Below, in pieces: positions 630-56,678 of a stretch of 64,000 nucleotides of DNA. Position 1 is the first letter of the stretch, and each line of letters opens with the position of its first letter. A program made the position numbers and the translations under genes. Below the pieces are notes generated by a model that had not been told where the DNA came from, ran no database searches, and was given only the letters and a program-made list of their open reading frames with translations. Location: positions 1,006,447-1,070,446 of the forward strand of contig JAQGDQ010000013.1 of assembly GCA_030141605.1 (NCBI GenBank), given 5' to 3'. This stretch comes from Tubiluchus corallicola (taxonomy: Eukaryota; Priapulida; Priapulimorpha; Priapulimorphida; Tubiluchidae).

Positions 630-3600
630 GTGAGTAAACAACTTAGTGAGCAAGTTATGAAATTTGTTTATGACAAAAGTGTCAAATCGTTTGGTACATC
701 TTTAACCATAAATAGGTTTCAATGCTTTTATGGAACCTAAAAAATGTAGGTGCTCCAATTCCACTAAGTTGGATGCAACTCTGGAATAAATAACTCGTCC
801 ACATTTAAGTTATTTTGTAAATTCTTAGTTCTGGTTATTTGTCTTTTTACACAGTTTCTTACACCTGTAAGCCAAGCTGCACTGGCAGTGCCTTCATCAC
901 TTTTGAATGTTGTGGCAGGGTCGGTACCTAGTTTGCCACCAGATACTAGTTGTCTATTAGAAACATGACATGCTGATGTTTATACATATTTTTTTAATCA
1001 CAAAAATAGCCAAACTGTGTAGCAGATATAATCCACTCGGTATAAGTCTTCTACTGGTGGCCACTCATCCAGTTACTGATCAAGCATTGATTAACTTTCG
1101 TAGCTAAGTACAACACTGTGGCATAACTATTTGTTTGCCGTCGTCGCAAATTAATGAAACTGTATATCGGGAGTAAGTCAGGGTGCAAACAACATATGTG
1201 TGCTTGCATAGCGACAGCTACAGCGACAGTAGTAGGCAATTCAGCTTTTTTAGTTATTCAAATATCCTGATTCTCCATTTCATGAGGATCATTTTGATAT
1301 CAAGCTCATTGCTCCATGTTATTTTTAAGATAAGATAATCCATGTTGAAGTTGAGGTGCAGGCTACACACTGAAAAACATAATCTTGAGAAAATCGCTGT
1401 GAAAATTAGCCAGTGTTTTTTGTCGCAGTTCTACTAAACACTTAGCAACTGTACGAAAGTGTGGTTGCTATGGATTTTGCAAAAACACTTTGAAGTTAGT
1501 TTAAAACCAGTGGTTGGCTCTTCCTGATGAAGATCTGGTTTTGACAGCAGAAAAAAGCCGAAGCAAAATGACTGGTTCCACGTGCTGATATCGGAGTTTG
1601 AAAATACATGTTTTTTACAATTGCACTACTAGTTTCTAGCCAGAAAATGGGGTTAAAAAATAGATTTTTAGTATTTTTTGAACATGTTCTTGATAATTTG
1701 ATACTAGAATATAAAAGTCCAATAGGTTTAGCATTCATTTTTATAAAAAAAAACAAGAAATTGACATTTGACCCAGTTTTTGGAGCATTCTACTTTGAAG
1801 CACCGTAACGTAGCTTTAACTATGCTGACTTGTGGATGGTTTCGGTTTGCAAGCACACATTTGTTAATTTTTGTTTATGATATTTCAGCTCCACCAACAA
1901 CCTCATCGCCTGCAGAGACCAGCAACTCTGCTACTGTGAGCTTTTCTTCTGCTTCCGAATCGTTTTCACCATCGTCCTCTAGCGACAGTGTCGAGGAGAT
2001 GTTTCTAGATGAGAATGGGGAACAGCAACAGTCAAATTTATCTCGTTTACAGCAGTCTGGCTTGTCTTTGTCAATGGCATCAATGTATTCAGGTAATTCG
2101 AAGGTTTGATATAGTCACAATTGTGAATTATGGAATTTTGGAGTGGTAAAGCTATATTGCAAATCTAAGCCAATAATTTTATATCACCTGTTATTATTTG
2201 TTGTCATTCAAGTGTCAGAAGAGACATACATTTCTTTCTATTTATAAACAAATTTGCTAAATACGTAATAAGCAACAAATTGCTTGCTACGTCCTGCTGT
2301 GATCTTATTCAAGTATTTTTTCGTATGTTGTGATTTATTTAAAGTATGAAATAAGTTTTACTAAATTACTAAAATTACGTAGTAGTTATAAAACTATGTT
2401 TTTTCACTATGCTCAATAGCAGATTTAGCAGCATTTCCCTAAATTTTCTTTATATCAGTCAACATTTTTACTGTTTTATAAATCTCTCATCAATTAAATT
2501 TGTCGTGTTTCAGTCCCGGAATGCCCTTTCTGCTTGAATTTTAGAACATAAAAACATTAAAATTTAAATTCAGTATATTAAATATTTCATCCCATATCTG
2601 TTGTCATTGATTAGTAATTAATGTAACATTAGTGCATTAGACTGTGTGTGTGCGTGTGTGTGTGTGTGCGTGCACGTGCGTGCATGTATGTGTTTTTTTA
2701 TTATAATAATGAAAGAATTTTGGGCTGGGTTATTTTAAATAACATTAGTACATTAGTTTGTGTACCACGTGTGTGTGCGCGTGCGTGTGCATGCATGTGT
2801 GTTTGTCTGTTTTTGTTTATGGCAATGAAACGAGTTTCGGGGCAGTGTTATTATAACTTGTCTCTATCTACTGTGAGGTGTATCTTCATTTTACTTTCGA
2901 TGAGTGGTGATGTTTGTCATATTATGAATGTAAAATAGATTTGCTTTATACGCAATTGCACAATTGTGTTTGGAAAAATGCTGACTTGCTTTTATATACC
3001 ATTGCACAATTGTGTTTCCAAAGGCTGACTTGCTTTTATATACCATTGCACAGTTGTGTTTCCATATGCCGACTTGCTTTTATATACCATTGCACAATTG
3101 TGTTTCCAAATGCCGACTTGCTTTTATATACCATTGCACAATTGTGTTTCCAAATGCCGACTTGCTTTTATATACCATTGCACAATTGTGTTTCCAAATG
3201 CCGACTTGCTTTTATATACCATTGCACAATTGTGTTTTCACATGCCGACTTGCTTTTATATACGATTGCACAATTGGGTTTCCAAATGCCGACTTGCTTT
3301 TATATACCATTGCACAATTGGGTTTCCAAATGCCGACTTGCTTTTATATACCATTGCACAATTGTGTTTCCATATGCCGACTTGCTTTTATATACCATTG
3401 CACAATTGTGTTTCCAAATGCCGACTTGCTTTTATATACCATTGCACAATTGTGTTTTCAAATGCAGACTTGCTTTTATATACCATTGCACAATTGTGTT
3501 TCCAGATGCTGACTTGCTTTTATATACCATTGCAAAATTGTGTTTCCAAATGCCGACTTGTTTTTATATACCATTGCACAATTGTGTTTCCAGATGCCGA

Positions 3601-4678
3601 CTTACAGAAACAATCAGCTTTTGTTGGCGCTGCTAGTGTTGAGAAACTGAACGCGACAGGCTCACAGGAGTCCTCTAGTCTCTCTGCTGACACAGTTGCC
3701 ATTAATCTGTTAAGAAGATTCGAAGACAGAAAACTTCCTAAAGCGTCCGAATTGGAGTGGCTCGTTTCCGAACAGGATGCCCCGCAGGCGCTTCTGCCGT
3801 TACCACTTTCCTGGCCTGTTTCGCCCGATGAAAGCGAACAGATGGACTTCAGTAAGAGGGTGCGAATAAGAGGTAATTTGGAGTGGGCCCCACCCAGAGC
3901 GCAGGTAATTTTCAGTATTCATCCTACGCAGAAACGTAAGGTAGTCATGGCCAAACAAAACTATCGGTGCGCAGGATGCGGAGCCAAAATTGAAGCTAGT
4001 GACATCAAGCGATACAGGTACTGCAATTATTTCGGCAAATATTTTTGTCCGTGTTGTCATAGCAACCATCAATCTTTTATGCCCGGGCGCATTCTTCAAA
4101 AGTGGGATTTTTCCAAATTTGGTATTTCACATTTTGCTCTTGACCTGCTGAAGAACATATCACGTAATCCTTTGTTCAATATGCAAGACATTAACCCTGC
4201 TCTTTACCGTAAGGTTGGTGCTTTGAGCAAAACGTTGGAACTTCGACAAAAAATGCCTCATTTCAACAACTATATCAAGACTTGCAGGCACGCTGGTAGT
4301 GTAAACGAAGAGTTTTCAAAACGTCCACCACATCTCCTCGACGAGATTCACGTGTATTCACTGGACGATCTGATCGAAGTGAAAAATGGAGCTCTCATAT
4401 CCGACCTGAAATCACTAGCAAAGTTAGCACAGAATCATATTTACAGTTGTGAACTCTGTAAAGCGAAAGCGTTTATCTGTGAGATTTGTCAGAACAGTGA
4501 CGATTTCCTGTTTCCGTTTGAACTAAAGAGGGTCGTGCAGTGCAAAATGTGCAGATCCATATTTCATAAGGCTTGCTTTGTGCCGGGCGAATGCCGAAAA
4601 TGTGCACGGTTGAAAGCTAGACAGATGCTGCAAGAAGAGTTGGAATTTACATCAAGTTCTTCAGACGAGAAACCTTGA
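1..4678 (+). CDS. RUBCN: Rubicon (RUBCN) orthologue, 3' part, three exons
   Basis: Join 2-629, 1889-2092, 3594-4678, continuing upstream of the window; about 638 residues are visible. Rubicon is a Beclin1/VPS34-complex-associated negative regulator of autophagosome and endosome maturation; its C-terminal Rubicon-homology (RH) domain binds zinc and RAB7. Seen here: an N-side segment with the family blocks '[20 protein letters not shown]' and '[20 protein letters not shown]', then a Ser-rich linker, then the RH region containing '[18 protein letters not shown]', '[17 protein letters not shown]', '[13 protein letters not shown]', '[12 protein letters not shown]' and 'KWDFSKFG', and a series of paired Cys/His motifs ending in CRKC. 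Splice phases match at both junctions. The upstream RUN-domain part is outside the window. RUBCNL/Pacer shares the RH domain, but the upstream blocks favour Rubicon. Confidence 0.95.
630..1888 (+). other. RUBCN: RUBCN intron
   Basis: Intron from GTGAGT at 630 to TTTCAG ending at 1888. I see no further coding signal in it, only AT-rich sequence and short spurious ORFs. Confidence 0.85.
1889..2092 (+). CDS. RUBCN: RUBCN exon b, serine-rich linker
   Basis: Acceptor TTTCAG precedes 1889 and donor GTAATT starts at 2093. Phase joins to exon a and exon c (one base plus two at each junction). It encodes a low-complexity Ser/Thr/Glu-rich linker including '[15 protein letters not shown]', the variable region between the central blocks and the RH domain. 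Confidence 0.88.
2620..2850 (+). repeat. Diverged tandem duplication with TG/CG microsatellites
   Basis: Two copies of a segment of roughly 120 bp each start with 'taacattagtgcattag'-like sequence, run into a GTGTGTGCG purine-pyrimidine tract (near 2642-2690 and 2768-2805), and end with related AT-rich sequence. It lies in the last RUBCN intron. The alternating GT/GC tracts could adopt Z-DNA, which is an inference. Confidence 0.75.
2940..3605 (+). repeat. 44-bp minisatellite, about 15 units, ending across the RUBCN splice acceptor
   Basis: Each unit carries 'cttttatatacc', the perfect 10-bp palindrome 'cacaattgtg', 'tttcca' and a 'atgccgactt'-like end. Most units read TTTCCAAATG. The last unit reads TTTCCAG and is the splice acceptor of the final RUBCN exon; another unit (acceptor at 3505) also has the AG. 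Because 44 is not a multiple of 3 and the unit has no stops, all three forward frames stay open through the array. Confidence 0.95.
3594..4678 (+). CDS. RUBCN: RUBCN terminal exon, Rubicon-homology domain
   Basis: Acceptor CAG ends at 3593. The frame joins exon b (g + AT gives Asp) and runs to TGA at 4676-4678. It encodes the whole RH domain in one 1,085-base exon with CAGCG, CPCC, CELC, CEIC, CKMC and CRKC motifs, an HKAC motif and an acidic Ser-rich C-terminus. The competing acceptor at 3505 would give the wrong frame. Confidence 0.93.
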
Positions 4679-7624: not shown

Positions 7625-7665
7625 TTAGTCTAGGCAGTCAAATGATAAATCCACAGCATTTGGAG
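7625..7665 (-). CDS. SBP-like gene exon 9 (terminal)
   Basis: Acceptor 'cattttcag' on the minus strand. The two leading bases complete the codon left by exon 8. It encodes APNAVDLSFDCLD and a TAA stop. Short, so the least certain exon, but the phase and pyrimidine tract fit, and the late Cys could pair with the earlier LC motif. Confidence 0.7.
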
Positions 7666-10600
7666 CTGAAAATGAAAACAAAGTAATTAAATATTGTCTT
7701 TGATATATGACGAATTGCTCATATTAGACTTTTTACTGTCCCTGTACTTCTTCCTTACTGGGAAGAATCATCAAAAACAATAGAGCATGTCAGATAGTGC
7801 AAACGCATTGTTTTTTGTGAGTAACTCTGGCATCAGGTTATCTGTCACAGTGATATGGTGTAACACACCTTTGTATTTTCTGAGCACATAAATTTTATTT
7901 TTAATCAACAAAAACATTCAATCTGATTCACTGCTGCTGCAAGTGTGGAATCATTCGTGTTAACTGGATGTCTATTTTTAAAAATATTACAATGAATAAT
8001 GTAACACAGAAGCAGTGATATTGCTCATTTTTAAATGAATAATCTTGACTGACAGTGTGTGTGATTTGTTCATTCTGAGTGCTTAAGTTGATAAGAAAGC
8101 CAGTCGACTCGCTCAGTGCTGTGTGACTTCTGCGTTTAGTCACATTTTCAAAGACGACCTTATAGTGAACTTTGACCTTAGACATGACCTCGAATCGTTC
8201 ACATAATCCTGATATTTGTTGGCGAATTTCGGTTAGATCTCTTGTTTAAGAGGCGCGAAATTTCATCTCCTGCGAATGACATTGACGTGGCGGTCACTTA
8301 AGGTCACGTTATAACAAATTTACGTCCATTCTCAAGTGTCGCAAAAAATGCTAAAATTTTTACAAATTGTTCATAGTATGTGATTTAGCGATATATCAAC
8401 TTTGTCCATTTGTTATCTCAAAAATTTTGAAATGCTGTTGACTTTAAATCGTGGGGCGGTGATTTATGATATAACTTATGAAATCTGGGATTTGCGAATA
8501 AACGCTGAGGCATTTAGAAAAGAAACGAATTGCTTTGCATTTGCAATGGTTAGGAATTTCAAAATACCAACTTGTTGCACAACTGCTCTCTGGAAGAAGT
8601 TGCCAAGCCGTACACACGTTGCAAGTTCACTCTCAGAGAGAAGTTGCGAGAGAAGTCTACGTCTGAAAGAGACACTTTTTGATATTCATCACCCTGACAC
8701 CTTGGTACCGTTGTACCCCCCCCCTCCCCAACTTTCCGCGATGTGCGGTGTACCACTTACCGTGCTTCCGTGGTGCCTCATCACAAAGCTTTTTATAAAC
8801 CCCGCTTTCTTTCACTTGTTTCAGTGCTGGATTCCACCAAGTTGGCACTGGGCTGTCTTTTCTTACCATCATAGATAATCCTCGTATCATACAGCTCCAT
8901 TTCTTACCAATCCACTCATATCGGGTTAGGTCCACTGTTGCGTCAACCGAGTGAAAGGCTGCATCGATCTGTAACCAACAGAAGAAACTGACAAATCTTC
9001 TTAGCGTTATCGTGAATGACATCCGTAATATATGCAGAGTGTGCGATGATGGTTGTTGCAAAACCAGACGATGACAAAGATGACAGCAACGATCACGAAT
9101 GATGGTAGTGATGATTTCGAATCGAAGGGAATTATTATAGTGGTGGTGGTGGTGGGTGGTTGTGAGGTGATGGTGGTGGTGGTGGTTGTGTGTAGTTGCG
9201 GTGGTGATGGTGTGGATGGTGGTGGGGGTACTGGTGAGGGTGGGGTTGTGGTTGTTGTTGTGGTGGTGGTGGTGGTAGTGGTGCTGGTGGTGGTGGTGTT
9301 GTTGGTGTGTTGGTGGTGGAATGTCGGGTTAACAGTTTGTGATTTTACTGTTGTTGTTACTTTTGGCGGTGGTGGTACTGGTGCTGGTGGTTTTAGTGAC
9401 AATCATATTACGAAGTTGATGTTGTTGTTGTTTGTTTGTTGTTGTTGTTATTACTATTGTTGTTGTTGTTGACGACGACGACGACGATGATGATGATGAA
9501 GAGATGATGATGATGAATATGATGATGATAATGAGTAGTGAAAAAAATGACGAGCATTTCGGTGATTATGACGATGTAGGTGAAAATGACGATGATGGCG
9601 ATGATGGCTAGTACCAAATCACAATCGTAATGACGCAGAGTATTGTTAATGATGCCGATAACAATGATCATGATTATGATTAATGAAAATTCCTGCAATC
9701 AATATTTCAGAAACGAATTTCTTTAATTGTACCTGTACTTGTTAATTGTTATTAACAATTAAATTTGCGTTATTACGATTATGAAAAATGACGATGACAC
9801 TTTGAGTGCGCGCATACATGTACCTCTCTCTTATCCAAGGCAGCAAACATGTCCGGTTGGTCTTTATAATGTTTAATTTGCTCCAGTGATAACTGATTAT
9901 TTCGAATGTCAGTCTGACTTCTGATACACTTTTCATCATTCACCCAACCATCAAGAAATCCTGCAAGTAAATAAGACAAGAAGATATTGTTACGGAGGCA
10001 CCTGTGTCGGGTCAGGTGTAGGGCCCTCTACACGCCCTGCTTCCAGCAGCGACTCACCCCTTTTTTGTAGGTCCAGACGTCTTGTTTGGGCCTACACGTG
10101 GTGTGAGAAGCCAGCTGACCCGGAATGCCAGTATAAAAGCGTGTAGAGGTCACTACGGCCTTGATTTCTGACACAGGTGCTCCTCGGGTGTAGTGCTGTT
10201 ACTGAGTTAGTTAGTTATTTTTTTGTGCACGTGTATTTTGTTCCCTATTTTTATTAGTGCTGATAATAAACTCCGTACAGTGTAGTTTTTGTATATTTTA
10301 TTTTATGAGAGTTAAATGACATGCTATAACAGGTATATGGTACTAGTTTACAGACATTAACTTAGTTAACTGGCATAACATTTGTAATTAAAATTAACAT
10401 TTGTAGTTAAGTAATCAGTTACACAGCGATAGTAAAATGGATCTTCATGATGCGCATTATCAAGACCGCCATGCCATATTGGAGTTCGACCCCCCCCCCC
10501 CCCCCGAGTCGAATTCAGTCCAATATTATACGAAAAGTTCCCCATCCGTCAAAACTGTTAATGTTGACTTATATGCTCTGTTTTATAGGTGAGATGTTTC

Positions 10601-13600
10601 ATTGCGTTTTTGTTTCATTTTACCTATAAAAACAATGCAATTCAAACAACACAAATTAGATTTAATTTAAAACTCATCAATGTGCTTGCTATGTCTTATC
10701 AAACGCCAATTTTCAATTTTATGTCGGTTCAATGAGTTACCAATGTAATAATTCACCGTTGTATCAATTATCAATGTATCAAAGACGATTATATACATAC
10801 TTACCGATTTTCTTGCCTCGAAGATCGCTTGGATCAAATCTTCCAGGATTTAAACGCACCACAATGAAATTAGCTAGAATTGGCTTCATAAAGGGGTCGG
10901 TGAATGCGATAGTGTTTAGTCTTTCTGGGGCGACGTACCACCCACTACAAGCGTCAACCCATCTTGCCATTAACGCTGTCGAGAAATTAGATGCGAAAAC
11001 ATTAACATTCTCCATTTACTAAATTTGTAATAAACAGCAAGTATTGTATGTTAAGGTTATTTCAAGCTTTCTTGGTTTACGATCATGTCAATTCGTTTTT
11101 ATGCAGGGATTAAGAACTATTAAAAAGTCTATTGTGGCCGCCATGATGAGCAAAAGCTTACATTGCCACGTGGTCAAATCTGTTGCTTTATCGGCCGCCA
11201 TGATGAGCCAAAGCTTACATTGCCACGTGGTCAAATCTGTTGCTTCTACGGTCCTACCTTGAAAGCGAGAATAGAATAAACAAAAAATGGTTGCGCTTTA
11301 CGGTTGACCAAATCATTGATGTTGAAGTCGACATCACTTAACCTTCCTCCACCTAGCGATGGGTGACAGTCAAATAAACAGTTTCAGTTATCTGCCGTAC
11401 TGTTACTAGTGCTAACTTTATCAAGCGAGGGACGAGACATCTCTGTCGATTTTTACTTCACTTCAGGAGAATGCGTTTAATTAGATCGGTTATAGCACTG
11501 CTACAACTAGGGTACAGCACTGCCACCACTAGGTTACGGTACGGCCACATTTAGATTACGGTACGGCCATAAACATTCATCATTACTAACTAACAGGCCT
11601 GCTGTTGAGTGCTGGATGTCGACTTCTGACGAACTCTGTAAAAGCATATAGGCACCTATGGTGCTGCCACAACTAAGTTACAGCACTGCCACAACTAGGT
11701 TACGGTAGGGCCACACTTAGATTACGGTACTGCCACAAAAACTCGTAGTTACTAACTAACTTTATGCTGCATGACTTTCTGCGTTTAGGCACATTTTCAA
11801 ACACGACCTTATAGTGAGCTTTGACGTTAGACATGACCTTAATGGGCTTACTGCTGAGATGCCCTGGATGTCGCCATCTGCCGGACTCTGTAGGAACATT
11901 TAGGCATCTACGGTGGTAAGAAACTTTAATGTGAGGAAAGCCTGCATTACATGTGAATGACGTCTTTAATGAGTATGAATTAAGTTTTACCTGGTCCAGG
12001 TACAGGATGTTTCCCCGGGACTGTATCCCAGCAGATTTTGTATTCGTGGTAGACTGTGTGACACTCCATGCCGGCAACTTCACAAACTGCGAATTAAAAA
12101 CATGATAATGGCGATTAATGTTCCTCCGTCCATGTTACTGCTTGCCAACTGTTAGGCGGAATAAGAATTTATTTTTAACTGGTCACTTCCGGAACAAATA
12201 TTCAAATCAATAGTTCGCGATAATCTCTAAAGCTAGGGTTTCACGGAGTTCGCGATATCGTGATTCACTAACAAAAAGGTGATAAAGAAGTGAGGTGGCT
12301 ATGTCTATTATTATTATTGTCGAAGAATACACGTTAAAGTTTTTTTTTCGTTAATTCAAATTTTTTGAAAAGTCCAGCCTTCTGGATAGTTCGGCCTATT
12401 TCAATGTTTGAGAAAAATGTTAGAATGGTTTGGTAATAAAGTGTGAAAAGGGCTTCGTGTGATTAGTGAAATCACTTTGAAGTCGCGATCATTTCACGCT
12501 TGGGCGCTTCATTTTGAATGCTCATTCTTCTACGAATGACGTCATTCATTGGCTGAAGAAAAGTAGTGCACTGTTAATCTCCGCCAAAAATATAATAATA
12601 TTTACAAGAAATTAGATAACAGAGAAATAATAATATTTATAACAAATAGCTAATTTTGTGATATTTTTGCATGAACATTAGGTGAGTTGCAAAAGTTTGA
12701 ATTAATTTAAGAGCTGGTGGTTACGGAAAGCCACGATGCGCTTACGAAAAGCCACGAAGTCCACCACTACGTCATAGTTTTCAAGCGAAATAAGTGCGCC
12801 TGATGATTTCTATTCAGTAATAGTATAAATTAACTTTATTATATGATGCTTAAATATGATGCTTTATTCTCTTTAGAAACTTTCTGTGAATGTCTTTGTT
12901 ATATTTTTCTAAGTTTAAGTAGTAACACCAACATACTAAATAACGTATCCTTTCCTTAAAGCTACTGAATCAAGTTCAGTAAAGTACGTCTTACTCGTAC
13001 CGTGCGCTGCTAACATTCATAGTTGCGTCCGTAGGCCCTACTGGAACATCATTTTCTTGTACACTTAATAACTACTGTGTTTAATATCAAATTAGAAATT
13101 ACGAACAATACGTAAATTAAAGAAAACACTGCGTTATATAGCAAGCAGTCATTTGCAATTACAATGCTTTATTAATTTTCTGGGCTTAATTGGACCATAC
13201 ACAGTTAAGTATTTAAACTTAATGAAGCATCAGTTCAGTTTGAATGACGAATGACAAGTTCATTTCACTTTGTCAGCGTACAAACCTTCCCGTATGAGAT
13301 CAATATTGAAGCCATCAGTACGACCTTGTGCATTCCTGGAATAATATATAAATTAATCAGTTAAAGCCATGTAATGAAATTACACGTGCTTTACAAGTTC
13401 TACGTTGAATGTTTAAAATTAATTAAAATGATTGCAATTATGGAAAGGGGCGCGATTATTTTTAAAAGCATTTTAACCATTTCAAAGTAATAATGGAATT
13501 CTCTATCTCTGGAATTCTCTACCATTACAGGTTAAACAAATCAAGTCCCTATCAGCATTGAAAACAAAATTAAAATCACTAATATTAACCAGATATGAAA

Positions 13601-16201
13601 TACCATCACACCAGTACGACAACATACACACTAATTAAGAATTTATACATCCACGGCCATATTAATTAAATCTTAGTTTTTTCATTTTTTGTGCATAGTT
13701 GTAGATTATGTTTGATTTTATTCGTCGTTACTGCACAGTAGTTTAGATTGCACTGACGCATTTGCCTTTAGCAGTGTAAGTTTTTATTAACTAGCACTGA
13801 TTGATCATCTCTGTAAAGTTTTTATCAGTGATTATCAATGTATTTTAATGGCAAATAAAGATTATTATATATATATGTATATATATAATGTATGTGGATT
13901 TATATCGGTGTATTGTAAATGGTACATTTTTAACGTGTTTAAATATATTCATCACCTTTTTTAACTAGATAAAATATATTACAATAATATTTTTTATTAA
14001 TTAATTTATTAATTACGTTCATTAACTAATATGGGAAGGGAAGGACTATATAAATATTATACTTCATCCTCCCTATGTTTTATATATTAAATTAAATTTG
14101 ATTTTAATTTTCACGTTGTCTTAAATATTATTATTTGATATGTACATTTTATGTATGAAATAAGTTGATTTATGTATTTATAGTAAATGTTTGCTTATTC
14201 TTTAGAGATTAGGTAACTCTCATTGTGCCATCTTGGTGCTAGGACTGTGATTAAAAGTTTTTGTCAAGCAAACGATCTTGTCTGGCGTTTAGTATTAGTT
14301 CATGTCAGCCTGGAAAAGCAGACTGGGACAGATTTTAAGAAGTTAGTACATGACCTCAGGACTCACGACTGCTAAGGTTACTGTTTGGCGGCGGCGTGGA
14401 TGTTGACTGTTTGAAAGAGGATGTTTGTTTGAAAGCTTAAAAAATCTCGTGTTAAGATATTTCTGCTTGTATGGAGAAATGAATATTTGATATGAGAGGG
14501 AGCCAGTATCTAGTATGGTGCATGTACCGAGCTCTCTCAAAGATGATTTAAAGCAAACATAAAGAAGAGCCCACAGCTTGCTGGGCCTGGCCAATGCCGC
14601 GCAATTGATCAATTTCACAAACTGCAATAGAAACATACACGCTGCAAGAGGGGTAGAGGTGCTTAAAGTACTGCTACTGCTGTGTAACAATCTTTGACTT
14701 AGGAAACCCAGAACTCTCGCTTACTCGCTTTCATTCTAAAACAGCAATTGTTTTGAAAAAGTTTCTAAGCTGTTAATATTGTTGTACTCCTGACAGGAAT
14801 AATAGTTTGAGAGAAACAACAATAGTCAGAACCAATCAAGAATGTCTGCTATTACCAATAGAGTTTCGCTTGTGTCAAACAACATTATCTATCAGCCCCA
14901 GGAGATGAAGATAGTGACAAATCAAGTGTCTAACAGTCTAACCTTGGTTAATACTTACAAATATTCGAAAGGCGCGTAATCGTGACCTACGTGGATCGTC
15001 CAGACTCGCTTCAGACCAGTTTGGACTGTTGCATTACCTAAAAATAAATATGATGTCTAGCATTTGTGTTTTCCTGTGAAAGAAACAAGTTTAATAATTC
15101 ACTAAATAGGTGAAAATATTTCATTATATTGCGTACTACAGATATACAGGCTGCATGTAGACTCTAGACACCATCTGCACAGAAATTAGTCATAGATTAA
15201 GGCTCTCAGATTTAACGCTTTAATTTAACACCTTGCACGATACGCTAAATCGTTTTTTTACTTTTATATTAGTAATTTTTTTATTTATTAGCTATGCAAG
15301 TTTAAGGGAAGAAAAGAAGATTTTGAGGTATCCCAAAAAACTTTCCATACAAAGTTATATTATTTAGTATTACGTTCATCTGTTTGAAAGATTCATGTAA
15401 TTGGTTAAGAAAATTCTTAGTAATTAAAAATGTTGCGCCAACTGGTAAAACGGTACTGAATCACCATCCCATTGTGCACCACATAACACATTATTCATCT
15501 TATTGGCAATGTAATAAAGCAATTTAAGCTTTTGCTTAGTTTGTGAAAATGTGGTATGAATGCTCTAAATATTTGTTTCATACTTTATGCAATATTATCT
15601 AAACTTGTTTCAAATGTTGTGTGTTAAAATGTTTCTGTTAAAATGGCTGCACTTAATGGTCATCGCCGGAGTTTAATTTACAAGTTTTTGGACACTGTTA
15701 CAACGCTGGTGGATAAAGCGTTTTCTTGTTCTTAAACAGTGATTTAAATCCTACCTGTAAACGCGCTAGTGTTGATCTGTCCTCCTAAACTAATATTCAG
15801 GTTAGTTGATCGTAAACTAACTGCTGCCAGGACTAAAGCAACAATTGTTAGACCCGCTGTAACTATCTGAAAATGTATAAAAATCAACATAAAAAGCGGC
15901 TGTCCATCGTGCTGTCTGTAGTTCGTTTCTTTTCCTATTTGAACTTAGCAAAAAACTGTTTTACGATGTCTGATATTTGAATAATTGTAGAAGTTTCTTC
16001 TTACTGTATCGAAACTTCGGACGTTGTATACAGGGAGGTTTAAAAAACTGCAAACGTTTTAAACTGCAAGTGTTTCTTTGAGTAATTTTGGGTATTTTTA
16101 AACTCGGTGTTTTTATGCATTAACTATATTTTTAAGAACTTTTCTTGAAAACTTACACGCCACTGTAAAAAAAACGATTTAAAAACCAAATCTTTTTTCA
16201 T
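7625..16201 (-). CDS. Membrane-anchored periplasmic-binding-protein type II (SBP_bac_3-like) protein, nine exons
   Basis: Complement of join 7625-7665, 8761-8968, 9824-9960, 10805-10975, 11991-12086, 13286-13335, 14959-15037, 15755-15866, 16157-16201; 312 residues, all eight junctions in phase. Residues 1-15 are basic and 16-33 form one hydrophobic segment (type II anchor or uncleaved signal). The rest resembles bacterial amino-acid ABC-transporter solute-binding proteins, the fold shared with ionotropic glutamate-receptor ligand domains: 'DYAPFEYL' (72-79), 'DGFNIDLIREVC' (86-97), 'GWYVAPERLNTIAFTDPF' (139-156, compare the bacterial TPER...FTDPY block), 'LRGKKIGFLDGW' (179-190) and 'DAAF' (232-235). 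Several Cys, including 97, 104, 114 and 137, suggest extracellular disulfides. Metazoan members exist to my recollection; ligand and function are unknown. Bacterial ancestry is inference. Confidence 0.87.
7666..8760 (-). other. SBP-like gene intron 8
   Basis: Intronic. It contains a copy of a dispersed repeat (about 8137-8195, 'cgaccttatagtga' core) that recurs at 11787-11838. Confidence 0.65.
8761..8968 (-). CDS. SBP-like gene exon 8
   Basis: Acceptor 'ctgttggttacag', donor g|GTAAGT. It encodes IDAAFHS, 'TRYEWIGKKW', 'MMVRKDSPVPTWWNPALK' and 'YKKLCDEAPRKH', the C-terminal lobe of the binding-protein fold. Confidence 0.85.
9120..9600. repeat. GTG/GTT then GAC/GAT triplet repeats in intron 7
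   Basis: Long imperfect triplet tracts: GTG/GGT/GTT near 9139-9330 and 9366-9470, then GAC/GAT near 9471-9600. They yield spurious poly-Val, poly-Thr, poly-His and poly-Asn ORFs. They lie between exons 8 and 7 of the SBP-like gene. Confidence 0.9.
9824..9960 (-). CDS. SBP-like gene exon 7
   Basis: Acceptor 'tcttatttacttgcag', donor GAG|GTACAT. The split Gly joins exon 6 to read KKIG-FLDGW. It then runs through 'VNDEKCIRSQTDIRNNQ' to 'MFAALDKRE', and continues at exon 8 as IDAAF, the usual order in solute-binding proteins. Confidence 0.88.
9988..10331 (+). mobile_element. Solo LTR of an LTR retrotransposon
   Basis: About 344 bp starting TGTTACGG and ending TATAACA (inverted TGTTA/TAACA termini). 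It has an internal TATAAAAG near 10133 and AATAAA near 10265 in the expected LTR order. The flanks 'gatat' and 'ggtat' form a 4-of-5 target duplication. No internal retroelement coding region is attached. It sits antisense in intron 6 of the SBP-like gene, 27 bp from the exon 7 boundary. Confidence 0.82.
10490..10505. repeat. Poly-C run
   Basis: Sixteen consecutive C bases. The length may be a sequencing or assembly weak point. Confidence 0.95.
10805..10975 (-). CDS. SBP-like gene exon 6
   Basis: Acceptor 'tctaatttctcgacag', donor g|GTAAGTAT. It carries 'DACSGWYVAPERLNTIAF' and 'GRFDPSDLRGKKI'. The acceptor at 10976-10977 was chosen because it alone matches the phase left by exon 5; the AG at 11019 would put TAA in frame. 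Confidence 0.9.
11136..11247. repeat. 57-bp tandem duplication
   Basis: Two copies of a segment beginning 'ggccgccatgatgagc' and ending 'caaatctgttgctt', with period 57. Intronic. Confidence 0.9.
11495..11920. repeat. Nested imperfect direct repeats in intron 5
   Basis: Short units of the form 'cactgccacaactaggtta' / 'acggtacggccaca' recur several times. Larger blocks at about 11500-11600 and 11650-11760, and about 11596-11668 and 11843-11915, are diverged duplicates. The block at 11787-11838 also matches about 8137-8195. Confidence 0.8.
11991..12086 (-). CDS. SBP-like gene exon 5
   Basis: Acceptor ending cag at 12087, donor CAG|GTAAAA. In the selected frame it encodes 'CEVAGMECHTVYHEYKICW' then 'DTVPGKHPVPGP', the Cys-rich stretch after the first helix, which leads into ALMARWVDAC in exon 6. 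The longest ORF here is in another frame and is not the gene. Confidence 0.87.
12360..12961. mobile_element. TTAA-type MITE family A, copy 1
   Basis: Diverged copy of the family seen better at 28853-29467 and 39482-39976. It shares 'ctatttcaatgtttg', 'tttcacgctt', 'tgacgtcattca' and 'gaagtccacca' blocks and ends in 'tcctttccttaaag'. Intron 4 of the SBP-like gene. Confidence 0.75.
13286..13335 (-). CDS. SBP-like gene exon 4 (50 nt)
   Basis: Acceptor 'atatattattccag', donor g|GTTTGT. It encodes 'NAQGRTDGFNIDLIRE', the conserved DGFxIDL block of the family. Phase fits on both sides. Confidence 0.86.
13490..13890 (+). mobile_element. LINE 3'-end fragment
   Basis: Reads NSLPLQVKQIKSLSALKTKL in the + frame, the typical C-terminal 'WNSLP...K' end of CR1/L2-type reverse-transcriptase ORFs. 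A stop, a short 3' UTR and an 'aatggcaaataaag' tail with a TA microsatellite follow. 5'-truncated and inactive. Confidence 0.7.
14959..15037 (-). CDS. SBP-like gene exon 3
   Basis: Acceptor 'atttatttttag', donor tt|GTAAGT. It encodes 'NATVQTGLKRVWTIHVGHDY' followed by APFEY. This is the first beta-strand and ligand-loop region, typical of the start of the mature binding domain. Confidence 0.87.
15296..15740. repeat. Dispersed repeat family B, copy 1
   Basis: Matches 25355-25960 through 'ttaagggaagaaaag', 'tacaaagttatattattta', 'catctgtttgaaagatt', 'gccaactggtaaaac' and 'aaaatggctg' blocks. Non-coding; class not identified. Intron 2 of the SBP-like gene. Confidence 0.75.
15755..15866 (-). CDS. 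SBP-like gene exon 2, membrane anchor
   Basis: Acceptor 'tttttatacattttcag', donor g|GTAGGA. It encodes 'IVTAGLTIVALVLAAVSL', a single hydrophobic segment, then a Ser/Thr/Asn-rich stalk with an NIS sequon. Confidence 0.82.
16157..16201 (-). CDS. SBP-like gene exon 1, start codon
   Basis: ATG at 16199-16201, donor CGT|GTAAGT. It encodes MKKDLVFKSFFLQWR, a short basic cytoplasmic tail in phase with exon 2. A TATA box lies about 165 bp upstream. Confidence 0.75.
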
Positions 16202-16375: not shown

Positions 16376-16780
16376 TCTCTTTTTGAATTTGAATGTAATA
16401 TTTTATCTTTAGCACAGGTATGTTTACAGTAATCTCGCAAGTGGCAAAAAAAGTTATTAATCATGTCATTTTATTTCAGGTCTAGACTGTACAAAGCTTA
16501 CTGCTCCGTTATGATGGCTTCTCTCTCGTATGCCTTTTTATTGTCCTGAGCTGACCAGTTAAGTATTAGAAGAGTTCGATTAGATTAGATTAGAAGCATT
16601 AGATTAGTGAAAAAAACAGTGGTTACACTCTGTTTCTTACCAGGCTAAGTGAGATGAGTTTTCCATTGGTGAAAAACAGGGAAGATCGTTGAGATGGCTC
16701 AGTTATAGCAAGAGTGTCCGGTTCACTCATTGTACTAGTATTCACTCAAACATCTAAAGAGCATTAATATTAGTAACATT

Positions 16781-25900: not shown

Positions 25901-28900
25901 TTAAATTTACCAGTTTCGTACAGCGTTGCTGCCGACGCAAACCCTGTACGTAATAAGCCAGGATATAAGTGGTATAAAATTTCAAGACTAATTTTGTACG
26001 CTTTCTTGTATTTTAATATGTAAATCACAACTCACATGTTTTTATAATGCATTGAAATCAGTTATTATTGTCGGTTCACTATTGTTTCTAAACTCAAACT
26101 AACGCCATGATATAAAACAGCCCATTCGTTCGATTTTTTTGTTTTTTTTACAAAATGTTTTTGATTTTTGAAGAACTATAAAACGGGAAGCAACTTGTAA
26201 GCAATCATTAACCCAGTGACAGCTAGGCCTACTTGAGCTGTCTGAGACAGCCACCACGGTACACGATGTACCAAAACTGTCAACCGCCGTATTTAACTAA
26301 CTACTCTCTTCCGTCTGCATTTCAGATGCGCAATAATTACTTCATTCCACCGATTGTGCTCAGGGGGTCAAAGGCACCAACATTCGCAGTTTTGAGCCTC
26401 GGGACATTGTTCTTTTGCTGTCCTTTGCTGGGATTCATCGCTAGCGTGTATTCTTTTAAGGTAAGACTCTAATTATTTGTAATCAGGTCACCTTCCGGTG
26501 AACTTTAACTGAGACAATTGAAGTCAAGCAAGTCATGGGCAGAGCGCCCCGGAACATGCATATGTGAACAACGAGCTATGTTCGTACAGGGTGGTCTGAA
26601 AGGAATAGAAGTGAGCTGATGGAATGAAATAAAAAGGTTTCAAAATGAACTTAGGTTTCTGCATAATATTTACAAAGATACAAAAGTAATTTAATATTTG
26701 CACAAGTCAAAAATTTTCTACTTAGAACTGACCACAATTTCTGGAAGTCATATGGTGTAATATCGGCATGTTTATAGCATTTTAGAGAACTGTTTTTTGG
26801 AACACCCTATTCAACTTTAACGGATGGCAGGGGCTCATAAGCCTACTATAAACTATTCTTTATATAAAATAAGGTTTTGTTGGATGGAAGTTTAGCAGAA
26901 ATAGATAAAGAACAGACCATATAAAAGTGGAAATTTATAATTTGCAAATTGTGAGAAATGTTGTTAATCTCAAGATAGTGAACATTACACCTCATTGGAA
27001 AGGGTGCCCCAGGGAAAAAGAATCCAGGTAAAAAAGTTACAAGGAAAAAGAAGAGTATGGAAAAAGAAAATTAATAACTCTATCCCTAACCCTAACATTA
27101 ACTCTAACCCTAACTTTAACCCTAACTCTAACCCTAACTCTAACTCGAACTCTAACCCTAACTTCAACCCTAACCCTAACTCTAACTCTAACCCTAACTC
27201 TATTTTCAACCTTAACCCTAACTCTAGCTCTAACTCTAACCCTAAGCCTAACTCTAACCCTAACTCTAACTCTAACTTTAACCCTAATTCTAAGCCAGTA
27301 ACCCTAACCCTAACTCTAACCCTAACTCTAACTCTAACCCTAAGCCTAACTATAACTCTAACCCTAACCCTAACGCTAACTCTAACCCTAATTCTAACTT
27401 CAACCCTAACTCTAACTCTAACCCTAACTCTAACTCTAACTCAAACTTCAACCCTAACCCTAACTCTAACATTAACCCTAACCTGTAACGCTAGCCAAAA
27501 TTGATTGTGACTTTTTTCTCTGTCAAAAGTGTAACTTTTCCCCCTCCCCGTGACTTCTTTTCCTGTAACTTTATTAACGGTCACCGAAAAAAGTTTTGTT
27601 TTTTCACAGTTAATTATTTTCCTTTGGTTACGGTTGGATTGTTTGCGCAGTTGTAGCACACTAATTCGGTACGTTTTTTACTCTGCACAATTTGCAGATA
27701 ATTAAGCTTAAATTGTTTCTACTTGTTCCAAACATCTCCGTTGTTTACTTTCAAAATATAGTTAAGGCTATTTGTGTTTCTGCAAAGTAGGTTAGGCCTA
27801 CTACATATAAATTACTAACACTACTTTGTAATGTAAGACTAAACTAATTAAGCTATTATACTGGTGTAATTTGCAGTTATCTGTGTTATACCTCCCGATA
27901 ACGAGCACGATGCTTTTTTAATGACTTCCACCTTTCAACTTTCAACATTGTGCTGGAGTAGTGAAAATTTTCTACTTTTAAACTTTTAGCGCTCAGCAAA
28001 TAGCTGCCATGATGTCTGTAGGGCAATTTTGTGCGTTTCCTCTATTATCATAAAGAGCTCCGCGTAAATTATAAGCCTACGCTTTGTTGACCCGCGGTCA
28101 TTGCAACTGATAAAATCTTCGTTTTATGAAAAGTGTTTTTCTTTTCACTGGCTTTAACCGGCTTTTAGTTGTTAACTTACGCCTAGTCTTCAAAAGAATC
28201 ACATTCAAATGAACCGAACTCTTGCTACGAGATCAATGTGTTCACTAACAGATACTTTGTACATAACTATTTGTTGAAGGCGTGTTCTCTAATTTTTTCG
28301 CGCCAAATAGCCCCAAAAACAGCTTGTATGAAAACGAGCTTTGTTTTAGGAAAGCGAAAGTAAAGAGAAAAGAACTTTGAAAAAGAAATGAAACAAGGCG
28401 TTATTGTCAAATACTTCGGCAATTAAAAGAAGGGCAAATGACCAAATTACATTCGGGTAGCGACAAGTTTTCACCTCTAAATAGTGTAAAAAAGTAGGTT
28501 GTTAAGGCACTATAGTGACTACTGTACAAGTGCAAATTCCTGTATATTTTCTGTGAAAACTTACGTACAGTCTATCATCGAAATTTTTGCGCTTACACAT
28601 TTACAAAATGGGATGTAATCTATGCAGTCGCTTTACGTTGATGTAATAAAACTTCAATCACAGTGTTTTGAATGACCGCATGGACGGCCTCTTATTGAAA
28701 CTTCGAGACAACTGGGTACATTTACTTACAAAACTCTACGTACAAGTTCATCCTATGCGCATAGGAATGCAAGACATGACTAACTTACTAAAGTATTTAG
28801 AAATTTATAAATTTTTCCCGTGATAAATACGTGTCTTTGGTGGAACGGTGACTTAAAGGAAAGGCAAGTCACTTAGCATCTTGGGTTTGTTTAAGTTTTC

Positions 28901-41700: not shown

Positions 41701-44700
41701 GTGCGCCAAGAGCGTCAGTTATTGATCACACTGATGGAGCCGCAGTGTCGACTGTGGCTGAGCAGTGCGATCCTTGAACGTCTCCAGGGTGCACACCTGG
41801 GCAAGGTGTATGGAGATCCTGAGTTGCCTAGACAACAGAAACCCCCTCTCTTCCTCCCTGGTGTAGTCCCAAGGAAAGCAGAGCGATACGTTTTGCACCA
41901 GGTTGGCTGCAGGAGCTGCCAGAGTCAGTGAGCATGCTCCACTGGTCCGCCTTCCGGTCTCCACTCCTGATTTGGAAGGTTTACTCCTCTACACATGGCC
42001 GTTGGGTCACTTGACCTCCTCCGCCCTCTAGCCGTTGGCTGCTTGTGCAGGTCCTCCGCCTAGTGTCAAGACACAGTGTGGGCATCCCGCAAGCCTACAG
42101 CACCTGGTATTCCTAGGCGGTCACCCATCCAAGTACTAATCAGGCTCTATGTTCCTTAACTTCAGTGATCAGACGAGAACCGGTATTTTCAACGTGATTT
42201 GGCCGTAATTGAGCATAGGTATGTTTTAATCAGTTTTAGTTTTGAAAAACACTTCTGTCACCTGATGTGACTGATGCCGGCCCCTCCCTCGGTGATTTAC
42301 TGGTTTAGTAGCTTTAAACATCAACTATAATCATAGTAATATGCAGTAAACAAATACATGTAGCAGTTATAAACTGATTTTACACACGGATTAAAACCAA
42401 TAGTCCAAAAATAAGTTTTATTAACATCAGTGTGCTCGACACGTGCTAAATACAAGTCCGACAGTCTTTTAGATGTAATTTATGATTTTTTATTGTCCAA
42501 AATGGCCAATCATCATCATATTTCAAATTCACTATCACATCATGACAGACTGACATATTATGTGCAACTCGACTTAGTTTTATCTGAAGCAAATGAAAGC
42601 AGAAAGCTAATCCAACGTCAAAAATTAATTAAATGGTATAATGAAAATGAATAATAATAAAACGAAATATGAAGAAATCATGCTTACATCTTTGCCGCAT
42701 CTTACTAACTTGCTAAAGAGAAAAATTTTGTTATTAAACGACCCGACATACTGAACAAAAATGACTTCTTTCCTATTCTGTCTCCAAAATGAGGCCAATG
42801 GCCTATTTCCTGTCCTAGTTCAGCTGTCGATTGACAGCTTAATTTTACAAAAAACAAACACAAGGAGGCACCACGTGCTTATATCTAAAACAATCAGGAT
42901 GACACATTTTCGAAAAATGTAGAAATTCATCAAATGTATCTTAAAATTTAGAAAAAAGCAGAGAAACCAATCTAACTACCAAAAGTTTAAGGATGGCTTC
43001 GTATCACTGGAAGAAGTGACAACTAAGTGGTTATGGCAATTGAACTTTTTGTGAAAGCAAGTCAGTGAATGGATGAGTGACCCTTGGGTTCAATGGAAAG
43101 TTTCATTCGTCATTCAAGGCTGATTCTTGTTATCTACCTTGGTCAGTAGCATACATTGGCAACAGAATTAAGGCACTTCTGCTGGTTCAATAGCTCGTCT
43201 CAGAGGATCCTGCCATGACAACCGCATTACGTTCTACTGCACTGCCAGCGTGTGAAGGAATCCAGGTGTGCAGAACATGACAATCGAATGAGAATAGAAA
43301 AACTTAATCTATGCATTCATTATTGCTCAAATCATCTATCAGATTAAATAAGAAGCAAGAACTACAAACTTGATTAAAGGTAGTTTTTTTGCACATCTAC
43401 TTACTAAGTGCAGTTTATCTGGCTTCCCTGCAAATTTGATCGTTGGCATTGGAACATTATACCTAGAATTTTAAAATAAAAAAAATTTGCGAACATTTTG
43501 CTTATGATGACTAAACTCTGTTGATATTCTAGTAAGTGGTTTAGCACAGTAAGTAAGAGGTTTTTACTTTTACTAAAGTTCTGTCTCTTACAAGCAGTGT
43601 GTTTACTATAACTATTTGTCGTTTTTTTGACATAAACGTATTTATTTAGAATAGTCAAAAATAAAAATGTTTATTTGTTCTTCATGTATACATAACAAAT
43701 TTTGAAATTACCGCATAGGTTGTACAAAAACCAATCTTTTCCAGAAAAAATTCGCTTGAAAACTACAAGCTACAGACACAGATAAAACACACTACTGTCC
43801 AGATGGCTGGCGCCATCTACGTGGAGAAATTGCCACATACTAAAAGTTTTCACTTACTCGTGGCAAGCTTTCCGCAGACGAGCTGTCATTGGAGTTGGAC
43901 GTTCATTCTCAGCTAGACCTTCTTCAAATAGATCTACGGACATGTTGGGATCAGTAAGCTTAACGCGTTTATTTGCAGATTCAGGTGTCGAAGGTGCAGG
44001 ACTGAAAAAAATCATTATAAACTTTTATCAGTAATGCATTCATGAAACAGCAAACTTGCTACTGCTTTTACACGTGTTGTACAAGAATTAGTAGGACATA
44101 TATGTTTTACGTCGTACATATTATATGTCTTGTAACACGTATACAACACGATGTCGTATAAGAATAAGGAAGAAGAATCAAGAAGTATAGAAGAAGTTTT
44201 AAGGCTGTTGTCCCTGGCTCAACAGTGGGCATCAAGAGCATGACTCCTACTGATTTCTGCAGTGACTCAGCTAACTGATCTGTTTCTCTTTTCATTCTCA
44301 TGTGAATCTAACCTTCATTTTCATCATCATCTCATTCACTCTTCATTGTCATTTCCTTACCTTTACTACCACCCTTGTATTTCATTTTTTGCATTTTTAT
44401 CCTGCACCTTCTACGTCTTTTCTTTGCATTTTGCCTTCTGCTCAGTCTTGTACAAGTTTACCTTCTTGGCCCGAGCCGATATATCAATATATTATGGTGA
44501 ATTTAAATTGGAATTTTGTTGTAATAACAGCTTTTTTGTAAAATATGTAACCATGTTGTATCTATGGCATTTTGGAAATAAACTGAACTAAACTAAACTA
44601 AACTTTTGATATTAAGGTCCAGCTTTTTTTCAGTAAAAGTGCTGAGTATACGGCACTCTATATGTAAAACTTGGTAACTTTTGTGATCACTTTAAATTGA

Positions 44701-55247: not shown

Positions 55248-56267
55248 TTATCTGTCCTCTTTTGATGGCTTAAAAATAACAGTTTTATAAAAAGCAAGAG
55301 CATCTAGAAAACAGCCACACATCTGTTCACGCTCCACTGAGTTCATGCTTAAGTAATTATCGATTAAATGAGGCGGAACTTTAACACTTACATCACACAC
55401 TGTCTTTCCACCTAATAAATCCTTTAAAATATTTTGGCCACTAATGGCTTCATTTCCGATCAGCATGTCAAAATACGAACTAGCTGCATCTTTCTTAAGG
55501 ACAAATAATCGCTGATTTTGGACAACTTTGGTGTGTTCGCAACTGTCATTGGTTACAGGGGAGTTCAAGAATACAGCCAACATGGCTTCAACGGTTCGCA
55601 AGTTCAGTATCAGCGCAAACATATGTGGCTTCATTTGATAACGAAGCAGCTTGTTTTCCATGATGTAGATATCTGCAACTGGTAATCTTTTCACAAATTT
55701 CTGCACTGCGAGCAAAAAATTTACATGATCGTATTTAGGAGCTGTTTTTCCAAAGAGAAGTTCTTGCTTCCAATCTAAAACTCTGAAACTTCTATCTAAG
55801 TGAGCTAAAGTTATGTAGTCTTGGCGCAAGCTCATGGCAACCAAAGATTTCGCATTCTGGCATTGAGAAGCTGAAATGGGAGGGCTCGTAGCAATGGTTC
55901 GAACCTTTGCTCTCTTGCTGGTAAACTTCTGAGACAATAACGCTGAACACATGCTTTGAACTGTCTTAAAGCTAATTCTGTCAAGATTTAGCAGCTCGGC
56001 AATGCTTTCAAATTTTCTTTTTGCTCTATACTGTATAATTTTCTTTGCCTGCACTTGCGAGATTCCACCATACTCATCCAGTTCTTGTAAACTTGCACTA
56101 TTTAATGTCGTAATTATAGCACGTTTTTCTTCAGTTGAGTATAATGCTTCTGCTTCATTGACCAATGCCTCAAACTTTGTTCCTTCGTGTCCAGGGGATA
56201 AGCGCAAACAACGTTTTGAAATCACACCCGTTCTTAGAGATGCTTGAAGCAACTTCAGATACTTCAT
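55248..56267 (-). CDS. TEFM: Mitochondrial transcription elongation factor TEFM
   Basis: 339 residues from the first in-frame ATG (56265-56267); stop TAA at 55248-55250. TEFM binds mitochondrial RNA polymerase (POLRMT) and raises processivity in the matrix. Seen: a basic, acid-free N-terminus (MKYLKLLQASLRTGVISKR) typical of a mitochondrial presequence; a helix-hairpin-helix region ('LNSASLQELDEYGGISQVQA', 'KRKFESIAELLNLDRISF'); then the family's degenerate RNase H-like domain with 'AHLDRSFRVLDWKQEL', 'RLPVADIYIMENK', 'RTVEAMLAVFLNS' and a C-terminal 'FLDALAFYKTVIF'. Single exon. The frame is open 5' to 56384, so a longer N-terminus via an upstream exon is possible. Human TEFM is about 360 residues. 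Confidence 0.93.
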   Translation of the reverse strand: MKYLKLLQASLRTGVISKRCLRLSPGHEGTKFEALVNEAEALYSTEEKRAIITTLNSASLQELDEYGGISQVQAKKIIQYRAKRKFESIAELLNLDRISFKTVQSMCSALLSQKFTSKRAKVRTIATSPPISASQCQNAKSLVAMSLRQDYITLAHLDRSFRVLDWKQELLFGKTAPKYDHVNFLLAVQKFVKRLPVADIYIMENKLLRYQMKPHMFALILNLRTVEAMLAVFLNSPVTNDSCEHTKVVQNQRLFVLKKDAASSYFDMLIGNEAISGQNILKDLLGGKTVCDVSVKVPPHLIDNYLSMNSVEREQMCGCFLDALAFYKTVIFKPSKEDR

Positions 56268-56368
56268 TTTGCTGTATTTGTTTGACAACTCTTTCAAATT
56301 ACTTGGGTGAAGTGCACGTCTAATACTACTAATCAATTTCAAACATGTTCTTGTGTCTATTGAAAAAC

Positions 56369-56395: not shown

Positions 56396-56653
56396 TCATT
56401 CACTTGAAGAATCCAGGTCACTGTAACCGAGTTTTGACCATTCTTCTTTAGACATTAAGTTGTTCTCCATTCTGCAGTGGAAATAATCCTTTGCTTCATT
56501 TCTACAAAGATTGTTGTTGCCACCATTTTGACGCAAGCAAAACATGTATTTCAACATGAACTGTTTGCACTCTCCTTCGTGATCTAGAGGAAAACTTCCC
56601 TTATCTGGAGCCTTGGGTTTAAATGCCTTCTGACCAAATGTTGTTGCAGACAT
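56396..56653 (-). CDS. COX19: Cytochrome c oxidase assembly factor COX19
   Basis: 85 residues. COX19 is a twin-CX9C protein of the intermembrane space and cytosol, needed for copper delivery and cytochrome c oxidase assembly. Seen: 'KAPDKGSFPLDHEGECKQF', nearly identical to the family core; a first CX9C pair in ECKQFMLKYMFC; a second in CRNEAKDYFHC; and the C-terminal LGYSDLDS. Start ATG at 56651-56653. An acceptor 'tctatttacag' ends at 56679, 26 bases upstream, so the 5' UTR is spliced and the first exon is unlocated. The stop lies 128 bp before the TEFM ATG on the same strand. Confidence 0.97.
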   Translation of the reverse strand: MSATTFGQKAFKPKAPDKGSFPLDHEGECKQFMLKYMFCLRQNGGNNNLCRNEAKDYFHCRMENNLMSKEEWSKLGYSDLDSSSE

Positions 56654-56678
56654 ATTTTGCGTAATCCGCTGATACAAT

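Follow-up and report, generated by a model that had tools for sequence, protein, structure and literature searches.

A predicted multi-exon gene of the priapulid Tubiluchus corallicola that would encode a bacterial-type solute-binding domain

How does a solute-binding domain of the bacterial amino-acid-binding type come to stand in an animal gene, and what might it bind there? The question is raised by a minus-strand locus in a 64,000-nucleotide stretch of the genome of Tubiluchus corallicola (contig JAQGDQ010000013.1, positions 1,006,447 to 1,070,446; hereafter the window), in which an original prediction, made from the letters alone, had placed nine short exons encoding a periplasmic-binding-protein (PBP) type II domain on a membrane anchor. 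Here it is proposed, with a probability of about 0.5, that the locus would be a functional nuclear gene of the animal, encoding a surface protein (or a secreted one) with an SBP_bac_3 domain like that of HisJ and LAO, serving as a trap for a carboxylated ligand and of bacterial descent. The gene model was rebuilt from the raw sequence, and the residue numbers used are those of the 327-residue model (a), which starts at 16730 (Table 1).

Exons 2 to 9, running on the minus strand from 15866 to 7625, are joined in phase at GT-AG sites into one uninterrupted reading. An AG precedes each of exons 2 to 9, a GT follows each of exons 2 to 8, the phases agree, and the motifs quoted in the original prediction are all present in the spliced translation. 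The nine in-phase GT-AG exons that it had described are thus found for exons 2 to 9; the first exon is ambiguous, with three candidate starts. In Pfam, the spliced product matches SBP_bac_3 (PF00497) with E=1.1e-14 (54.8 bits, for a cut-off of 26.4), and a profile comparison with six bacterial proteins gives a probability of 99.3 and E=9.1e-21 over 210 columns with 29% identity, both lobes being covered. The lysine/arginine/ornithine-binding model TIGR01096 is matched at 6.2e-17 (61.9 bits, under the model cut-off of 256.35), and the NCBIfam HisJ model gives 42.9 bits, its curated cut-off of 459 not being reached. Of 66 matches in the PDB, the best 60 carry the names of bacterial-type binding proteins, apart from one sensor protein, one cyclohexadienyl dehydratase and some reconstructed ancestors; HisJ stands second among the matches listed. 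Together, the Pfam, PDB and profile results support the predicted assignment of the product to the PBP type II/SBP_bac_3 domain, as had been claimed; judged by sequence, this domain is less close to glutamate-receptor domains than to the bacterial amino-acid-binding proteins, with which it shares about 29% identity, and the HisJ/LAO proteins are the bacterial group that it resembles most.

The dehydratase among these matches brings up an enzyme built on the binding-protein fold, and both AncCDT-1, one of the reconstructed ancestors of this enzyme (2.4e-7), and Cyclohexadienyl dehydratase 5jos (5.3e-4) are matched; however, binding proteins rank better (best match 9.3e-14), and a catalytic role of this type appears scarcely probable.

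In animals, the PBP type II fold is familiar from ionotropic glutamate receptors (iGluRs) and ionotropic receptors (IRs), whose ligand domains (PF10613) resemble the priapulid domain in fold class, in their extracellular position and in being animal. Descent from such a ligand-binding domain that lost its channel part would agree with the common fold class and with a 13-bit match to PF10613 Lig_chan-Glu_bd, which is weak (E=0.12) and under the cut-off of 30. However, the bacterial family scores far higher, the two being compared by profile only, and PF10613 is likewise matched, at E up to 10 and at best 1.2e-10, by each of the six bacterial proteins that were tried, which makes this match uninformative on receptor origin. 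The Cys pair of HisJ is retained, no iGluR name occurs among the best 60 of 66 PDB matches, and Pfam found no channel, transporter, G-protein-coupled receptor (GPCR) or kinase family in the spliced product (channel families checked up to E 10), in agreement with the earlier claim that no channel or transporter is attached. Given the PF10613 matches of the bacterial proteins, the lack of any channel family match and the HisJ Cys pair, descent from an iGluR or IR is considered very unlikely.

The joining of the exons was examined with a bacterial profile built solely from six HisJ/LAO-type proteins. With this profile, the spliced product reaches 81 bits, and the best of 200 shuffled copies 0.5 bits. 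As an unspliced control, a six-frame translation of the window was scored, comprising 2,828 open reading frames (ORFs) of at least 15 amino acids (aa). The ORFs of exons 6, 8, 4, 5 and 3 take ranks 1, 2, 3, 6 and 8, all on the minus strand and with the genomic order equal to the protein order; the ORFs in between, at ranks 4, 5 and 7, are unrelated and score 2.4-3.0 bits. Taken singly, exons 3, 5 and 7 have 1.8, 0.5 and 0.0 bits, and they reach significance only through joining. A decaying or unexpressed bacterial insertion, or an artefact of joining chance ORFs, is highly improbable, since the domain stays open over about 250 codons across introns with no stop or frameshift, and its exons rank high, in the correct order, with an independent bacterial profile.

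Rubicon, an animal gene, is found next to the locus on the plus strand, with Pfam matches to RUBC_PIKBD at 11-634 and to RUBC_PIKBD plus the Rubicon homology domain at 3056-4675. Because these domains adjoin it, the gene is placed in animal nuclear DNA and not on a bacterial contig; together with the exon structure, this bears out the claim of an intron-rich, animal-type gene.

The three candidate starts lead to different N-termini (Table 1). Candidate exon (b) contains an internal T run ending in ACAG, which is acceptor-like, and for candidate start (c) an in-frame stop is located at 15947. In all three models, the strongest hydrophobic stretch lies in or at exon 2 (best 19-residue mean hydropathy 2.2-2.6), so the anchor-like segment described earlier is present whichever start is used. 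Three N-X-S/T sequons follow it, and a stalk of about 28 residues separates it from the domain. Because of the length of the hydrophobic run, as read by eye, an anchor is favoured over a cleaved signal peptide. With a cleaved signal peptide, the product would be secreted in soluble form and would scavenge or buffer a small molecule, and the start at 15890 does give a short stretch and a hydrophobic core followed by small residues (AAVS), as might be expected from bacterial relatives that are secreted or lipid-anchored soluble proteins. The starts at 16730 and 16201, however, leave 15-30 residues before a run of about 18-20, which by eye is more typical of an anchor, and secretion is regarded as possible but rather unlikely.

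The ligand pocket was assessed by aligning the domain with 18 bacterial relatives, of which 17 lie at plasmid loci and one at a phage locus, the sources being without exception Pseudomonadota or a Pseudomonas phage. Since these relatives had been selected for matching this protein, the counts lean toward similarity. In HisJ and LAO, Cys38 and Cys45 form a disulfide. These positions are Cys in 18 of 18 relatives and are kept as C112/C119, so that the earlier statement that disulfide Cys were gained does not apply to this pair, but may apply to the six others, which are extra (129, 152, 211, 271, 307 and 325). Arg77 (HisJ/LAO numbering), Arg in all 18 relatives, is kept as R161, which is the residue named Arg146 in the original prediction and rightly placed there in the pocket. 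Likewise, Tyr14 (Tyr in 17/18) is kept as Y88, and position 52 (aromatic in 17/18) as W130. Other positions have changed: position 120, Thr or Ser in 18/18 relatives, is W205, position 161, Asp in 13/18, is S252, and the Ser72 position is Tyr156. The second pocket residue proposed before, Asp154 (D169, in FTDPF), is absent from the ligand-site residues listed in passages of PMC4192606 and PMC5740067, and S252 is more telling. For HisJ Asp11 the counterpart is uncertain, being D87 in one alignment and a gap in another.

Compared with HisJ, LAO (ArgT) and ArtJ, which belong to PBP cluster F, the priapulid protein therefore has the sequence blocks in the same order, as well as Arg77, Tyr14, the aromatic residue at 52 and the Cys38/Cys45 pair. 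In contrast to them, its gene has introns, and the product has a hydrophobic anchor or signal, a stalk, inserts, the six extra Cys, Ser for Asp161 and Trp for Thr120. As described in passages of PMC4192606 and PMC5740067, LAO and HisJ grip the ligand amine with Ser72 and Asp161 and the carboxylate with Arg77; of these contacts, the two to the amine in HisJ/LAO/ArgT are not kept. Because Ser252 replaces the Asp for the alpha-amine, a free classical amino acid is disfavoured, and the ligand is probably a carboxylated small molecule other than a simple free amino acid. The foremost candidates would be N-substituted amino acids of the opine type and zwitterions resembling betaine or ectoine; opines and betaines are abundant in marine invertebrates.

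The closest published cases for an altered amine site are NocT and OccJ of Agrobacterium, also of cluster F, with which the priapulid protein shares the Arg, Tyr and Trp, its Ser252 corresponding to NocT Ser207 (passages of PMC4192606 and PMC5740067). According to the same passages, nopaline and octopine are ligands of NocT, whose two amine sites are Gly97 and Ser207 and whose arginine binding is unmeasurable; OccJ, in which Ser91 and Asn202 take these places, is a tight binder of octopine and, as given in PMC5740067, a weak one (micromolar) of amino acids. However, the NocT signature Gly97-Met117-His170-Ser207, as given in these passages, is lost in the priapulid protein except for Ser207 (as Ser252), and the OccJ signature Ser91-Asn111-Thr163-Ala164-Asn202 is not kept.

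Several points weigh against this interpretation of the pocket. As described in PMC5740067, changing OccJ Asn202 to Asp leaves octopine and arginine recognition about unchanged, and LAO Gln122 changed to Ala binds octopine though Asp161 is retained; loss of the Asp alone is therefore no proof of a ligand other than an amino acid. Five of the 18 bacterial relatives likewise have no Asp at 161, and the Ser72 site is variable, with Phe or Tyr in 3/18, so that Tyr156 is not unique. With Tyr in place of NocT Gly97 and one of four NocT signature residues kept, no opine signature is found. Additionally, the loop with LAO Asp11 is two residues shorter and is placed differently by two alignments, and with an alignment identity of at most 29% the pocket assignment is approximate. 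A Tyr or Phe at the Ser72 position, as in the priapulid protein, is seen in a Pseudosulfitobacter plasmid (L022) and in Ensifer and Sinorhizobium plasmids (L018 and L020).

As for how the proposed surface protein might work, it is predicted to begin with a short cytosolic stretch, to cross the membrane with a single hydrophobic anchor and to continue through a stalk with glycosylation sequons into a complete SBP_bac_3 domain. The two lobes would close on a small carboxylated ligand, with Arg161 holding the carboxylate and Tyr88 and Trp130 clamping the side chain, and the closed form might be sensed by a distinct partner in the membrane; alternatively, the protein might simply capture the ligand. 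A separate partner or simple capture is presumed because no transporter, channel or signalling domain was found in the protein. Bacterial binding proteins serve transporters and also stimulate receptors, as stated in the abstract of PMC9602780. On a tentative and unlikely extension of the proposal, a bacterial HisJ/LAO-type protein would have become a tethered animal sensor or presenter for a carboxylated metabolite with no free alpha-amine, read out through an unknown partner; this metabolite may be opine- or betaine-like and come from the animal's own metabolism or its microbes. If this were true, the protein would stand for a class of animal receptors for small molecules of which no member has been described. 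In Venus kinase receptors and class C GPCRs, the flytrap is of a different type and joined to a kinase or a seven-helix region; in contrast, neither was found in the priapulid product. They resemble it in being animal surface proteins with a flytrap module (abstract of PMC4026697).

No ABC-transporter part was seen near the gene when the window's long ORFs were inspected by eye and eight of them were run against Pfam, all of them unspliced. Among the 18 bacterial relatives, an annotated permease or ATPase gene adjoins six, the rest having other neighbours or no annotation. The locus in Pseudomonas phage Phipami28 (L006, 38824-40050) has amino-acid ABC transporter genes adjacent to each other (ATPase, binding protein and permease).

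Regarding origin, an old acquisition of a bacterial solute-binding-protein gene, which later gained introns, the anchor and extra Cys, appears most likely. Among 72,556 plasmid records, 295 were matched at E 1e-5 and 610 at E 1e-3, all below 60% identity; in the matches listed (the best 40 of 295 and the best 60 of 610) identities are 21-29%, with one exception of 31.8% over a third of the query. Similarly, 11 of 50,697 phage records were matched, with 22-30% identity. These low identities argue that there was no recent transfer from these collections, and no bacterial donor was found among the plasmids and phages they contain. The scans of viral and prokaryote contigs require exact short words and their negatives are weak. 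In the viral contigs, the protein alone as query gave nothing, and a GW[YF]-R-F-DP[FY]-type pattern had 0 matches; with the domain alignment as query there were 48 pattern matches, none a relative by tblastn, and a DGWxxDExC-type pattern, for which the control was its one match in the window, had three matches whose translations are unrelated by eye. In the prokaryote contigs, the protein alone gave seven pattern matches and no relatives. A permissive tblastn of the window outside the gene found no paralogue; its best candidate (51342-51307, 12 residues, E 0.46), in an ORF at 51348-51292 that scores 3.0 bits (rank 4 with the bacterial profile), was read as chance.

No published study of an animal protein of this kind was found among the papers listed in a search that excluded most subscription journals and bioRxiv preprints, in agreement with the original remark that its ligand and role appear undescribed; the papers listed had only passing database labels. 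The SBP_bac_3 domain has been annotated automatically in several invertebrate genomes. The domain label occurs in one sentence of the shrimp transcriptome paper PMC5070816, grouped with immune-related genes, and, in one sentence of the mite genome paper PMC6902594, as an expanded family of 22 genes in a list that also includes a phage terminase; because the terminase appears in the same list, contamination is suspected there. PMC6307864, on animal glutamate receptors, gave no match to the search words. The priapulid gene, accordingly, combines a known domain with an unusual architecture and an unusual host, and no description of its function was found in the literature searched. An animal surface protein consisting of a bacterial-type binding domain alone stands outside the iGluR/IR picture, and the domain offers a comparison case for the rise of iGluR ligand domains. 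It is also a concrete, expressible target, the ligand of which would tell whether animals possess a sensing or scavenging system of bacterial descent.

Table 1. Features of the predicted gene and its candidate starts (positions in the window; residues as in model a)
Feature	Position	Strand	Content
Candidate first exon (a)	16641..16730	-	MSEPDTLAITEPSQRSSLFFTNGKLISLSL, donor GTAAGA, phase 0, in phase with exon 2; 327-aa product
Candidate first exon (b), of the original prediction	16157..16201	-	MKKDLVFKSFFLQWR, phase 0; 312-aa product
Candidate start (c)	15867..15890	-	in-frame ATG at 15890 abutting exon 2 (MLIFIHFQ), no upstream splice; 305 aa
Exon 2	15755..15866	-	hydrophobic segment, either a signal anchor or a signal peptide, then the first part of the stalk; sequons N54 and N62 (model a)
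Exon 3	14959..15037	-	last part of the stalk with sequon N69, then the beginning of lobe 1 and DYAPFEY; Y88 at the ligand stacking position
Exon 4	13286..13335	-	GFNIDLIRE block
Exon 5	11991..12086	-	C112/C119 pair (HisJ C38/C45); W130; by alignment, 4 + 7 residues inserted compared with bacteria
Exon 6	10805..10975	-	DACSGWYVAPER with the ligand Arg (R161), FTDPF, LRGKKIG
Exon 7	9824..9960	-	FLDGWVNDEKC (W205, C211), insert, stretch preceding the IDAAF block
Exon 8	8761..8968	-	IDAAFHS (S252 at the LAO Asp161 position), end of lobe 2, WWNPAL block
Exon 9	7625..7665	-	C-terminal tail PNAVDLSFDCLD and stop TAA at 7627-7625
Possible polyadenylation signal AATAAA	7139..7144	-	about 480 bases past the stop

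The polyadenylation signal is weak because AATAAA is common in the window (178 matches on both strands). The intron between exons 5 and 6 contains, at 11136-11245, a 57-base unit in head-to-tail repeat (1.9 copies, 98%). Fifteen copies of a 44-base unit (94% match) lie at 2941-3603, and the Rubicon ORF at 3056-4678 spans most of this array, which is probably an intronic minisatellite beside a Rubicon exon. On the minus strand, Pfam also identified two further domains, CHCH at 56399-56677 and HHH_3 at 55251-56342, in ORFs that by eye look COX19-like and TEFM-like, respectively. A scan of the window for bacterial promoters and terminators gave nothing informative, and a transfer RNA search of the window found none. 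The sole Rfam match in the window, at 42092-42210, is a full-length match to 5S ribosomal RNA (RF00001, 89 bits). In addition, about 400 bases of telomere-like TAACTC/TAACCC hexamer repeats are present at 27075-27482, and a reverse-transcriptase ORF (PF00078, 5.1e-24), probably a fragment of a long interspersed nuclear element, at 60494-61417.

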